A stretch of DNA of 64,000 bases from Lophium mytilinum (taxonomy: Eukaryota; Ascomycota; Dothideomycetes; Mytilinidiales; Mytilinidiaceae): positions 1,364,001 to 1,428,000 of the forward strand of contig MU004183.1 in assembly GCA_010093605.1 (NCBI GenBank), written 5' to 3'. A program made the translations under genes and the position numbers. Below are positions 48,893 to 56,337 of the stretch, in pieces. The notes under the pieces are model-generated. The model was not told where the DNA came from. It searched no databases and worked only from the letters and a program-made list of their open reading frames with translations. The first letter of the stretch is position 1. The number at the start of each line of letters is the position of its first letter.

Positions 48893-51708
48893 CTAATACC
48901 GCTCGATAAGCCACACCCTCCTCTCCTTCTCCGGCATGTCCGCCAGCATCTTCTGCTCCACCTTCTTCATGGCCATGAAATCCCATACTAGGCCATTCGC
49001 CATGATCTCCTTTAGATCAGAGTCCTTGTCTAGCGCCTCGAGTGCTTCGTCGATAGTAGTAGGCATACGGCGATGGATGCCGTAATCAGTCTTCAGCTGT
49101 TCCGCCGACATACGGCTTGGATTATCTAGAAAGACAAATGGGGGTCAGCAAAGGCACTCTCCAGACCAAGAGCATACTCGAAAACAACTCACACGGACAA
49201 TCCTTCTCCATGAAAATCTCCGCTCCGCCCTCTTTCAGTCCTAGTAGTCCCGCACCTATCACGGCCGCCATGGCGAGATATATATTCGCCATCCCATCCA
49301 AACATCTGACCTCCCACCGCCCATCACTGACCTTCCGCAACGGCGTCTCACGGTTCTGCGTCCCCCACGCTACCCATGTTCCGCCCGTCCAATGGTCGTC
49401 AACCACGCGGCCGTAGCTCACAGCCTCGGGCATCGTGAAGGCGCAGACGGCTTCCAGGTGCTTGAGCACACCGCCAACGAAGAACGCGAGCTCCTTCTCT
49501 GGTGGGCTAACGGAGATATGAGCGTGAGCCGCAGTGCCGATGCCAGGGTAGGGCTGCGGGTGGAGTGTTGCGCGGAGGCCGTGCGTCGCTGCTATCTGAT
49601 AGATGACTTGACGGGCTTGGATTAGGGTGTCGATGGCAGCGAGGGCGGGAAGAGGTGGAAGCACGAATTCGTATTGCCCGGCCCCAGCCTCGGCGTGGAA
49701 TTGCTGGATAGAGATCCCGATTTCAGCCAGGCTGGTGGCGACTTCGGCGAGGAGGGGGAGTTGCTGCCATTGCTGGGGCGTTAAGGTGCCCCAGGCGTGA
49801 GCGGTTGTGAGAGGAGCGTAAGGGTCGTCTGCATTCTCCGGGTGGCGGGTGAGGAGAGTGACTTCGATTTCGAAGCCGACGAGAGTGGTGATGGAGTGCG
49901 TGGAGGAGAGGTCATCGAGGAGGGTATTAAGGCCTCCGCGGGGGCACTCTTTGATAGGACTTCCGTCTTCGTCTCGCCAAAAGCATAGCACGGTTGCGGA
50001 TGGTAGTGGGTCTTTCTTGTGGGTTCGTCGCAGGGTAGTCAAATCAGGCTCAAGATTTATCTGGCCTGTGGTGTTGACAGCAGGTGTTGAGACATCATTC
50101 TGTAGAGTGCCAGTATTGCCACGGGAGATACCAATTCGCCCGCCCGTCTTGACGAGGCGTTCAAATTCTGCGATTGGCACGATTCGGACTCGCATGGTGG
50201 CCATGTAATCGAGCCATTGAACGTATACAAATTGAATGGCCGAGTTGTCTTGCATGAAGTTTTCAAAAGCCTGGATGTCGTAAACTTTTGCCGGTAGAGG
50301 TGGCTTGGGATGCCACGCGATAGCTTTTTGGTTGGCCTCACCCGTTCCTTTCAAGTCCAAGACTGGAGATGGCTCCTTCAGCTCGTATAGGGCGTTCGCG
50401 TTGTTATAAAGTATATCTTTGGTCATTGAAATTGCTTGAGCAACGGTTAGGTCGTCTCTATTCACATACTCAGACAATACCTGTATATGATCGTCAGTAG
50501 AGTGGACAATGATTGCATATATTCACCATTGCGTTAGAAAGGGTTTTTAGACACGAGGGAATGGATACCTCGTATAGAGCTTCCCGGAACTGCTTATTTG
50601 CCAGCCAATACGTCTCTGGAAACCAGTGTCCGTCGGTTGAGTACAGTAGCTTGCCCCCGGGTACCAGCTCTAGGGATTGTCTTATTGCAGATATTTGGCC
50701 GTCTCTGCTCAACATTGGGAAGATCTCCCCAATATCAAGGAAGACATGACTGAAAACGGTAGCAAGATATCCTGCTTCTCTGGTATACGGATATGAAGAA
50801 TGGAGAAGAACGAAGGGCACAGCTGGGTAGTTTTCGATGAGCGGCTGAAGATAGGCGGGGTTGGACTGCAAGAGATTGATATCGTTGTCCCCAAGGCCAG
50901 TATGAAACTGCAAGGGCTTGGACAGATCCGCACCAGACGTGTGGTCGGAAAGAATCTCCAGAGTCTTCAACACAAGAAAATCATTCAACGCCTTTCTTTC
51001 AATCCTGTACTTCCGTTTTCTGACAGCTCGTTGAACATAGTGCTCGAACGGTTTCGACACTTGTAGCTCCAGGTTGTCATTGTAGTCGGGTTCGACATCC
51101 AGTCCGCTCCGGTAACAAACGACCGTTTTGAAGCCAGCAACGTCAGAATCTTTGATTGCGTCGACGATTGATCGCTCAAACTCTCCTGTAAAGAGGACCC
51201 ATATGTCGGTGAGATATCTTTCTTCTTCCAAATCTACTTCCGAGGCCTTCCGCAGAATGTTCTCCATGAGATACTCTGCAACTGTCTCGATCCTCACGAT
51301 GCGTTTCGTAACAGCTGGAGTGTATTGATCGTGCTCATCATAAGTAAGCACCTGCTCGGCTCCGCCCAATCCGTCATCCATGAGAATGCAGTGAGTTCCA
51401 TGCAAGCATTTTCGGATGAGAGCCTCCTGGTCGTTGTGGAGCCATTCAGCCCGTTTTTTAAGGATCTCATCCCAAGCAGCGTCCTTTGGGCATTCATATA
51501 GTTCTCTCAGCTGCCTCTCGGCTCGAAGGTGTGATAACGACTTGAATGTGTCTTGTAGGGCCCTTCCCTGTGCTTCCGAAGTGATGGATTCGAAGGGATG
51601 AGCTTCCACGTGAGCGGGTAATAGCAAGTTGTGCGCATGATTGTCGATGATAGGGCAACTCTCTACGGCAGCTTTGAGGGGCTCCAACGCCGTTCTGCCG
51701 TCAGCCAT
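48893..51708 (-). CDS. fluG: FluG: amidohydrolase fused to type-III-like glutamine synthetase domain
   Basis: Orthologue of Aspergillus fluG, which is required there for the extracellular signal that starts asexual sporulation. Exons are 51708-50569, 50480-49193 and 49125-48893 (886 aa); introns are 88 nt (GTATCC..CAG) and 67 nt (GTGAGT..TAG). Residues 1-390 form an amidohydrolase-2 domain (CPIIDNHAHNLLLP, FHTGLGDNDINLLQSNP, YPAVPFVLLHSSYP). Residues about 430-886 are glutamine-synthetase-like: HAEAGAGQYEFVLPP, GTAAHAHISVS, GTQNRETPLR, RWEVRCLDGMANIYLAMAAV. The joins REALYE-VLSEYVNRDD and EKDCP-YNPSRMSAEQ are exact. The glutamate and ammonium-site motifs are largely kept, but whether it makes glutamine is unknown even in well-studied homologues. 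Confidence 0.94.
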
Positions 51709-52185
51709 GGTGAGGGTGAGGTGATGTTGTATGATGGAAACACACGCAGGCTAGGAAAGAGGCGATGAGACCGTGGAGAGCGCAGCTGTTCACATGACTC
51801 AACACGACCTTCGGTAGCCCTTTCGTAACTCTAATTCAAGGCTGATGTTGTTGACCGGTGTGCTTAGTAGAGTTTAGTGATGATGTAGCCTTCAAGCCTC
51901 AGATACCGCGGGGACAGCTCATGTGATCGGAAACGAAACATCCCGAATTTAATTCATGGCACGACGAATCAAAATAGTAGGATAGCAGTTCACTAAAGCA
52001 TTGCTGTCTTGCTTTCAAATACAACTACTACAGCCTGCTCAACATCATACTCTGTAACAGAATACCACTGGTGCATTCGGGCAGGTCTTCAAGTTCAAAA
52101 AAATTGGAGTAGTCCAGGGTGGCTCTCCACCAACCATACCCCCGCTCTCCACACCGTTAAGGCGCAACAAAAAGCAAAAAGATAA
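51709..52185. other. Intergenic, fluG promoter side and downstream of tRNA-Ile
   Basis: About 480 bp. A run of A-rich sequence (AACAAAAAGCAAAAAG, 52164-52179) lies just past the tRNA 3' end; on the tRNA strand this is CTTTTTGCTTTTTGTT, a good RNA polymerase III terminator. Confidence 0.55.
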
Positions 52186-52321
52186 TGGTCAATACGGGGG
52201 TCGAACCCGCGGCCTTGGCGTTAACATACGATATTAGCACCACGCTCTAACCTATGATGAGTTAGGATATGATCGAGATCAAGGTGTGTTGTGATGAGCT
52301 TACCAACTGAGCTAATCGACC
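52186..52321 (-). tRNA. tRNA-Ile (anticodon AAT) with two introns, one spliceosomal-like in the D-loop
   Basis: The acceptor stem GGTCGAT (52321-52315) pairs with ATTGACC (52193-52187); discriminator A at 52186. Anticodon AAT is at 52235-52233. A 10-nt intron (52231-52222) sits after position 37, the canonical eukaryotic site. The T-arm reads GCGGG-TTCGACC-CCCGT. In the D-arm, GCTCAGTTG (to 52304) is interrupted by 52 nt (52303-52252) before GTTAGAGC, whose GAGC pairs with GCTC. The insert starts GTAAGC, holds CCTAACTC about ten bases from its end and finishes CATCATAG, the exact consensus of the protein-gene introns in this window (47-57 nt). Removing both inserts gives a normal 74-nt tRNA-Ile. 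T tracts follow the 3' end (52179-52164). Identity is firm; how the D-loop insert is removed, or whether the copy works, is unknown. Confidence 0.9.
52252..52303 (-). other. GT-AG intron-like insert inside the tRNA-Ile D-loop
   Basis: 52 nt with 5' GTAAGC, branch-like CTAAC (the A about ten bases before the end) and 3' TAG. It lies between the two conserved guanines of the D-loop (G|G in AGTTGGTT). tRNA splicing endonuclease normally cuts only at position 37/38, so removal would need another route. Confidence 0.72.
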
Positions 52322-54822: not shown

Positions 54823-56337
54823 ATGCCTGCGATGCTGGATGATCCGACTGCTGCCATCATCTACCGTACTTCTGGCGAAATGCCATACCCTACCGCGGGG
54901 ACGCCGCTTCCTCTGGACATTATACCCCGCCAGGTCATCCTCAGAGACAGAGTCACAACGGCTACCTTGTTACCTTTCTCTTCGCCGGATCAGGTGCCTG
55001 TGTCGTTGGTAGCATACCTGTCGGACCAACTCAATCGCGAAATCGAAAAGGGCGACACTTATCCCATGATCACCCCGCTACCTCTCGAATCCTTCGGCCC
55101 ATACTGGTTTGGTGTATTCGGTGCTGTTATGCTTCTGGGGGATATACAAAGCCCTGCGCAGCTTCTCGATATGGAGAGACAGGGACGAGACTGGGATAAA
55201 GAATGTCTGGGGAGTTTCTACATCAAGCCAAATTACCCCGGCCGGTCTAGCCACGTCTGCAATGCTGGCTTCATAGTCACAGATGGTGCGCGAAATCGAG
55301 GTGTGGGTAGACTGATGGGAGAATGCTACCTAGATTGGGCTCCGAAACTTGTTGGTAGCCCTCGAAAGTCGTGCAGAACATGATCGCTGATTGATTAGGG
55401 CTACACTTATTCTGTGTTCAACCTTGTCTACGAGACCAACGTTGCATCCTGCCGTATTTGGGACGCTCTTGGCTTCAAGCGTATTGGAAGAGTCAAAGGA
55501 GCTGGAAACCTCAAATCATACCCCGACGAGCCCGTCGATGCGATAATCTACGGTCGAAGTCTTGGAGGTGACGATGATTTTGTTTCTGAGGAGCGATTCG
55601 ACAAAATAAGGTACTATCTCAAATACGACAAATACCCCGATGGCGCCGATCGAGCGGAAAAGAGCCGGCTAAGGAGCGCTTCACTACACTACAGCCTCAT
55701 CCCGGCCTCGGGCGACGAGCCGGAAAAACTGATGCTAAAGGGAAAAGAGGTGATTCCGGACCCTCAAAAGCAGTACGAAATTGCTCGAACCTTTCACTTA
55801 GACAGACACGGGGGAATCAACAAGACTACGGCTGCGATCGCCGAGAAATACCATTGGGTGAGGATCAAGGAGACTGTTAGCCAGGTCATTCGCCATTGTT
55901 CAGAATGCGGCGAACCAAGTAAAGCGGAACCTCCACGACCAGCTGCTTCGGCGCGACCCCAAACTTCGAGACAAGATTCAGCCCCTTCGAAAGCGCAATC
56001 ACCGTCTCCGAGTCAACAGCTTCAGCAGGAGGCTTCCGGGGCAAGCCTCCCAGAGATTGAGCAACAGCTTGAAGCTTACGGGAGTTCTACTTATCAAGTA
56101 CCAGAGCCGGTGTATTATCGAGACGGCGACATGCCGGTTGACCCTCAGCTTATGAACCCTCCTCTCGACCATCCGCCGTCACCCTTCCTTTCGGCGACTC
56201 TGTCAACGCCTGCTGATGGAAGCTCCGCGCAGGACACACCGATGACAGGAACTGGTGAATCTAAGCCTACAATGTCGCATTTGACACAGCAGATGGCCCA
56301 TACTACCACATATAACCCAACGGCAAGAAGGCAATGA
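54823..56337 (+). CDS. SPT10-like protein: GNAT acetyltransferase plus integrase-type H2C2 zinc domain
   Basis: Two exons, 54823-55350 and 55399-56337 (488 aa). The junction APKL-GYTYSVFNLVYETN is required for the GNAT fold but uses an unusual GTTGGT donor. Residues 100-240 carry the acetyl-CoA motif (RNRGVGRLMGECYLDWAPKL) and the following NVASCRIWDALGFKRIGRV strand-helix. Residues about 310-365 hold HLDRH, then ITxKYHW-like NKTTAAIAEKYHW and IRHCSECG. This is an H-x3-H...C-x2-C zinc domain like that of retroviral and retrotransposon integrases. Yeast Spt10, an activator of core histone genes, has the same pairing and uses the zinc domain in sequence-specific DNA binding. The last 120 residues are Gln/Pro/Ser-rich. 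A true one-to-one orthology to Spt10 is inferred, not shown. Confidence 0.76.

Follow-up and report, generated by a model that had tools for sequence, protein, structure and literature searches.

The 64,000-nt stretch of the Lophium mytilinum genome analysed here (the window) carries on its minus strand a tRNA-Ile(AAU) gene that is interrupted twice. We assigned its parts from the letters, the predicted fold, scans for splice signals and Pol III boxes, and comparison with a second Ile(AAU) gene elsewhere in the genome:

52186..52321, minus: tRNA-Ile(AAU) gene, 136 nt, with two inserts (letters read, fold)
52304..52321, minus: exon 1, tRNA positions 1-18 (comparison with the second Ile(AAU) gene)
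52252..52303, minus: 52-nt putative spliceosome-type intron in the D-loop, between G18 and G19 (letters, paralogue, splice-signal scan)
52298..52303, minus: 5' splice-site-like GTAAGC (signal scan)
52261..52265, minus: branch-site-like CTAAC, with its A at 52262 (signal scan)
52252..52254, minus: 3' splice-site-like TAG (signal scan)
52232..52251, minus: exon 2, G19 to position 37, with anticodon AAT (hand-counted positions)
52222..52231, minus: ordinary 10-nt anticodon-loop intron after position 37 (standard 37/38 rule)
52186..52221, minus: exon 3, positions 38 to 73 (letters read)
52303..52314, minus: Pol III A box TAGCTCAGTTGG (box scan)
52197..52207, minus: Pol III B box GGTTCGACCCC (box scan)
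52176..52180, minus: run of five T, a putative Pol III terminator, starting 6 nt past the gene (scan)

The coordinates, the 52-nt insert with its three splice-like motifs and the 10-nt anticodon intron agree with the original prediction, which had been made from the letters of this DNA. The smaller insert lies at 37/38, the usual place, and the larger one at 18/19. Excising the 52-nt insert joins GGTCGATTAGCTCAGTTG to GTTAGAGC..., and with both inserts out the 74-nt product has a full cloverleaf as its minimum-energy fold, which bears out the claim that exact removal restores the normal D-arm; the energy of this fold has a z-score of only -0.97 and is excluded from the evidence. The branch A of CTAAC lies 10 nt before the end of the insert. 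Because the insert starts with G, the A box TAGCTCAGTTGG remains unbroken.

Unspliced, the gene draws neither an ARAGORN call nor an Rfam match at gathering score, and the Rfam tRNA model covers it at model positions 8-63 only, with 13.8 bits. Once spliced, it is recognised as a tRNA by ARAGORN but named Asn(gtt), because the anticodon intron has more than one possible placement. We call it Ile(AAU) because this is the anticodon given by the standard 37/38 rule and because the gene resembles the second one, to which ARAGORN gives the name Ile(aat). For self-splicing introns, no Rfam group I or group II family matches the window at gathering score, or this locus up to an E-value of 10. Putative small group I introns of 56-81 nt have been reported in fungal rRNA (PMC3160393); for the window insert, inspection by hand gave no register with an exon-final T and an intron-final G. 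A group I or group II assignment thus finds no support.

Elsewhere in the window, adjoining amidohydrolase and glutamine-synthetase ORFs on the minus strand (49122-51708) probably form one gene, which we take to be FluG-like. An ORF with an H2C2 integrase zinc finger (55414-56337) is probably a retroelement remnant, and a kinase encoded in the window has its best named relative in Mytilinidion resinicola (Mytilinidiales, Dothideomycetes), at 95% identity over 92%.

Inserts in other tRNA genes

The original prediction viewed the insert as the property of one locus. Across the genome, however, 7 of 47 nuclear tRNA loci read by letter contain an insert of 50-56 nt outside 37/38. The tally of 47 derives from 50 hand-picked non-duplicate loci (of 106), holding 52 ARAGORN genes plus the window Ile gene and Arg(UCU), with two mitochondrial-type genes (L070), L039, L044 and three Glu-like genes of L093 left out. 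The locus lists behind it cover 63 of 1346 candidates scored for Rfam, 40 of 45 in the census and the 100 listed of 246 B-box sites (150 sites on the backward control), so that the genome has at least seven insert-bearing genes. Besides the window gene, these are:

Second Ile(AAU), C10:238629-238765: 52 nt after exon nucleotide 29, in the anticodon stem (standard positions 28/29); GTATGT...TACTAAT...CAG
Ala(UGC): 53 nt between positions 9 and 10; GTAAGT..CTGAC..AAG
Arg(UCU): 55 nt in the T stem, directly before TTCGA; GTATGT..CTAAT..TAG
Asp(GUC): 56 nt, within the variable loop; GTAAGC..CTAAC..CAG
Ser(GCU): 51 nt, within the variable arm; GTACGG..CTAAC..CAG
Ser(AGA), L071, C5:1138891-1139021: 50 nt in the T stem; GAAAGC..CTAAC..TAG

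Six of the seven inserts have GT-AG ends and one, that of Ser(AGA), has GA-AG; all seven contain a CTRAY motif whose A lies 10-13 nt before the end. Boundaries were placed by paralogue comparison and ARAGORN, as the cloverleaf scorer gave inserts in the D-loop and variable arm no unique site. Comparison of the Ile(AAU) genes, which the original prediction had proposed, brought out a second gene with a different insert; the intact copies elsewhere that would have spoken against that prediction did not turn up, as far as our searches of the assembly reached. The two genes are interrupted at different sites (after exon nucleotide 18 versus 29), and neither carries the other's insert; each thus serves as the empty site for the other. 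We found no relatives for comparison in the viral-contig and genome-contig collections (0 matches).

Two of the genes count against a spliceosomal reading. The Ser(AGA) insert begins with GA, yet this is the sole Ser(AGA) copy found; possible explanations are a rare but functional variant, an error in the sequence, and a gene on its way to being lost. GA-AG introns are described as rare elsewhere, with one reported in a nucleomorph (PMC4035089). The Ala insert has an AAG acceptor, and the A box of the Ala gene is imperfect, with a mismatch.

Three genes represent Asp(GUC); over their full length they align with the insert-bearing Asp gene at 100, 92 and 87% (5 of 5 candidates scored). All three carry an insert with splice signals, and the pattern GGAGA followed by GTANG..YTRAY..AG and then NCAGGGTTCGA occurs at exactly these three places (control, 0). 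The inserts at C1:1641895-1641956 and C8:1631991-1632052 are identical over the 62 nt probed, 6 of which are exon, in genes that are 92% alike overall. This identity suggests recent copying between the C1 and C8 genes and means that the two provide no independent evidence. The same probe did not find the insert of the C13 gene.

Separately from these seven, L093 799-1522 (C2:531070-531793) holds three Glu-like tRNA genes in tandem, which share one body and differ in their anticodon arms. The last of them (C2:531642-531793) has 76 extra bases and a possible 78-nt GTAGGT..CTGAT..TAG insert.

Promoters, terminators and insert-free copies

The B box, with A or G allowed first, is continuous in all seven insert-bearing genes, and the A box in six. 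A run of 5-7 T begins 6-13 nt downstream of each (7/7). Where an insert abuts a box, its own ends fill in: AGTTCGAGCCC of Arg(UCU) is made whole by the AG that closes the intron. Kept boxes and T runs are what continued use by Pol III would require.

These features bear on an explanation in which the inserts are spliced by the spliceosome from Pol II read-through transcripts, with Pol III having no role. In its favour, the next same-strand ORF of the window (50494-51708) starts about 480 nt downstream of the tRNA. Retention of Pol III boxes (imperfect in the Ala A box) and of nearby T runs in all seven genes argues otherwise, as does U6 of S. pombe, which shows that a Pol III transcript can be spliced (PMC10484740), and we regard this explanation as extremely unlikely.

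Standard tRNA finders handle the seven genes unevenly. With long introns allowed, ARAGORN misnamed the second Ile, Ala and Ser(GCU) genes and named Asp and Ser(AGA) correctly; the Rfam tRNA model did detect the insert-bearing Ala, Arg and both Ser genes. If our reading is true, tRNA finders can miss or mislabel essential tRNAs.

We also noted a repeated element at 65-520 kb of C1 (L035, L038, L040-L043, L045 and L048), in which a TATA-like stretch is combined with a hairpin (CCCTCACC...GGTGAGGG), the motif GCTAAC or one close to it, a B box and, in most cases, a T run. It has no Rfam match at gathering score and looks like another Pol III small-RNA family.

Exon-joined queries against the 43.18-Mb, 24-contig assembly, in a search that may overlook diverged copies, turned up no insert-free gene for Ile(AAU), Ala(UGC), Arg(UCU) or Asp(GUC), with all 7 of 7 candidates scored; the outcome for Ser(AGA) was the same (4 of 4 candidates scored). 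The Ser(GCU) query missed L032, which is a diverged Ser(GCU) gene (anticodon read by hand) lacking an insert of this sort, and diverged insert-free genes of other kinds could therefore escape as well. The Asp query recovered the 5' exon and not the 3' exon, which shows that the search overlooks short pieces. Under standard decoding rules, the Ile codons AUU and AUC, the Asp codons GAU and GAC, and the Arg codon AGA each have no alternative reader. The insert-bearing genes for these codons must therefore yield tRNA, if the assembly and the search are complete.

Two decayed tRNA-Arg(ACG) copies, at L076 and near position 2424 of L005 (C6:513292 and C6:2104869), give a picture of dead tRNA genes in this genome.

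The original prediction had itself allowed for a dead copy, and the wider version of that idea is that all these genes are dead copies, hit by mRNA-like introns or by random DNA, while the working genes were missed. Decayed tRNA genes do occur here, one insert starts with GA, the search for insert-free copies overlooked L032, and short D- and T-arm insertions in eukaryotic tRNA genes are usually deemed to mark pseudogenes (PMC4090602). The insert-bearing genes nevertheless have intact bodies, B boxes and terminators, in contrast to the decayed Arg(ACG) copies. As far as the search reached, no working replacement was found for Ile(AAU), Asp(GUC) or Arg(UCU), whose codons must be read; since it turned up no alternative source for these tRNAs, we consider dead copies unlikely.

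Likeness to mRNA introns and excision tests

Joined reading frames, in the window and at 30 further loci, pointed to 31 candidate mRNA introns, most numerous at 45-54 nt (11 of 31); the reversed sequence gave 2. Fourteen rows fall at 45-65 nt and represent 12 distinct candidates, all in the window; we dropped two with GTT donors (32799 and 55350) and kept ten. The ten measure 47-64 nt, a range that includes both the 52-nt window insert, as the original prediction had it, and the 50-56 nt of the whole set. Their donors are GTAAGT, GTAAGC, GTGAGT, GTATGA or GTAGGT and their ends CAG or TAG; the GTAAGC of the window Ile insert is the donor of two of the candidates, at 2696 and 58055. The tRNA inserts thus fall among candidate mRNA introns in size and in exact hexamers, the only features that are freely compared, since the scan demanded GTNNG, YTRAY and AG. 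Across the 14 rows, the distance from branch A to 3' end is 6-19 nt, and 9-12 nt in 7 of them. We discarded the idea that absence of TTTT from the tRNA inserts reflects Pol III selection, as TTTT occurs in only 1 of the 10 candidate mRNA introns. Plotting the sizes given by bare splice motifs across the window was too noisy to use.

At the window Ile site there are four equivalent registers, and GT...AG would appear in one of them by chance about 1 time in 64. For the six GT-AG inserts, which have 4, 4, 2, 2, 1 and 3 equivalent registers, the chance of GT-AG in all is 192/256^6, or about 7e-13, before branch motif and length are considered; this arithmetic is post hoc, assumes equal base use and excludes the GA-AG insert.

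In a mechanical excision test over 252,945 letters at 70 loci, we removed GT-branch-AG candidates of 45-80 nt and ran ARAGORN across each junction. A junction-spanning tRNA resulted from 10 of 599 candidates, compared with 8 of 5990 random excisions. Five of the ten correspond to the boundaries given above at five genes, two to other acceptors at two of these genes, and three lie in L093; six of the eight random successes lie inside L003, L052 and L093. At the given boundaries, ARAGORN named the excision products of the Ser, Asp and Ala genes Ser(gct), Asp(gtc) and Ala(tgc), that of the second Ile gene Ile(aat) and that of the window gene Asn(gtt). Two genes fell outside this test, Arg(UCU) because it is too near the locus end and Ser(AGA) because its insert starts with GA.

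The inserts could instead be non-canonical tRNA introns cut by the endonuclease at a bulge-helix-bulge, as in archaea, Cyanidioschyzon and cryptophyte nucleomorphs; introns of that kind occupy the D, anticodon and T arms, and some tRNAs have two or three of them (PMC4090602). We applied a simple rule of our own, in which two 3-nt bulges flank a 4-bp helix and the whole spans both junctions. In none of the registers of the seven inserts does a central helix of 4 bp coincide with a good outer helix. Pairing in the GT-AG register is partial, with up to 3 of 4 pairs, and the sole 4/4 central pairing, in the second Ile gene, is out of the GT-AG register and has 1 of 4 outer pairs. Moreover, a bulge-helix-bulge cut predicts neither GT-AG ends nor a branch motif nor mRNA-intron size. 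We judge this origin to be very unlikely.

Proposed processing and comparison with known systems

Given the anatomy of the inserts, their recurrence, the kept promoters and terminators, the likeness to mRNA introns and the failure to find insert-free copies, the 52-nt insert in the window is very probably a spliceosomal intron of the U2 type, one of a set, and the tRNA gene that it interrupts a working Pol III gene. The original prediction, an mRNA-type intron in a tRNA gene transcribed by Pol III, gains strength from the different insert in the second Ile(AAU) gene, from five more genes and from the absence of insert-free copies from our searches.

From these letters we infer the following order of steps. 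TFIIIC would bind the intact A and B boxes of the Ile gene, and Pol III would transcribe the entire gene and terminate at the T run. The 52-nt insert would prevent the pre-tRNA from folding until the spliceosome recognised GTAAGC, CTAAC and TAG and ligated the exons. The cloverleaf would then be restored and its ends trimmed, and the tRNA splicing endonuclease and ligase would take out the 10-nt anticodon intron. As a guess, the inserts may go back to reverse splicing into transcripts of Pol III, a route proposed for U6.

We lean, with some reserve, towards a broader model in which the spliceosome would be an obligatory tRNA-maturation machine in this Mytilinidion-like lineage, Pol III genes (those of several essential tRNAs and perhaps some of U6) would have gained spliceosomal introns repeatedly, possibly by reverse splicing, and decoding of Ile, Asp and Arg (AGA) would depend on splicing. 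Introns of tRNAs and mRNAs are treated as separate systems with separate machines, and tRNA genes that need both would break this division. If the model is true, translation is tied directly to the spliceosome, and even very small Pol III transcripts can be handled by spliceosomes, given that the Ala gene has a first tRNA exon of 9 nt, plus leader. The paralogous Ile genes, interrupted at different sites, and the three Asp genes, interrupted at the same site, would form a natural test bed for intron gain in noncoding RNA. Among the titles and opening lines of abstracts listed by our literature searches, largely outside subscription journals, there was no report of spliceosomal introns in tRNA genes.

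One known source of new short spliceosomal introns is the introner-like elements of Dothideomycetes, the class to which this fungus belongs. Such elements are expected in many near-identical copies. The window Ile, Asp, Ser(GCU) and Ser(AGA) inserts, four of the seven, were used as queries in a loose first look and found no copies outside their own gene families; the Asp insert is identical in two Asp genes.

Introns outside 37/38, at least two per tRNA, and in the D, anticodon and T arms are likewise described for archaea, Cyanidioschyzon merolae and the Guillardia nucleomorph (PMC4090602). They differ from the inserts described here in being cut by the endonuclease at a bulge-helix-bulge, where their processing is known; those of the Guillardia nucleomorph are 3-24 nt long, and neither GT-AG ends nor a branch motif is mentioned for these non-canonical introns (PMC4090602). 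The original prediction had named U6 as the sole parallel, which is too narrow: lichen-forming ascomycetes have spliceosomal introns in nuclear rDNA, for example of 57 bp, that are spliced from a non-Pol II transcript (PMC8527467). These too are ectopic spliceosomal introns in a noncoding RNA gene, but in rRNA made by Pol I and not in tRNA made by Pol III.

At least 21 U6 matches in the L. mytilinum genome exceed the cut-off (47 of 2177 candidates scored), of which 14 span 100-106 nt and 7 span 148-151 nt (C1:1758966, C23:222333, C23:87811, C23:111887, C4:297658, C4:181672 and C4:341535). Judging by these two size classes, some U6 genes probably carry an insert of about 50 nt. Fungi other than S. 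pombe are also known in which U6 snRNA genes carry an mRNA-type intron. In S. pombe, the mRNA-type intron of U6, a Pol III RNA, is spliced out, making it a close likeness to the present case as a spliceosome-type intron within a Pol III gene (PMC10484740). The two cases differ in that U6 is a part of the spliceosome, for which reverse splicing near the catalytic nucleotides has been proposed, whereas tRNAs are not spliceosome parts, and in that several unrelated tRNAs and sites are affected here.
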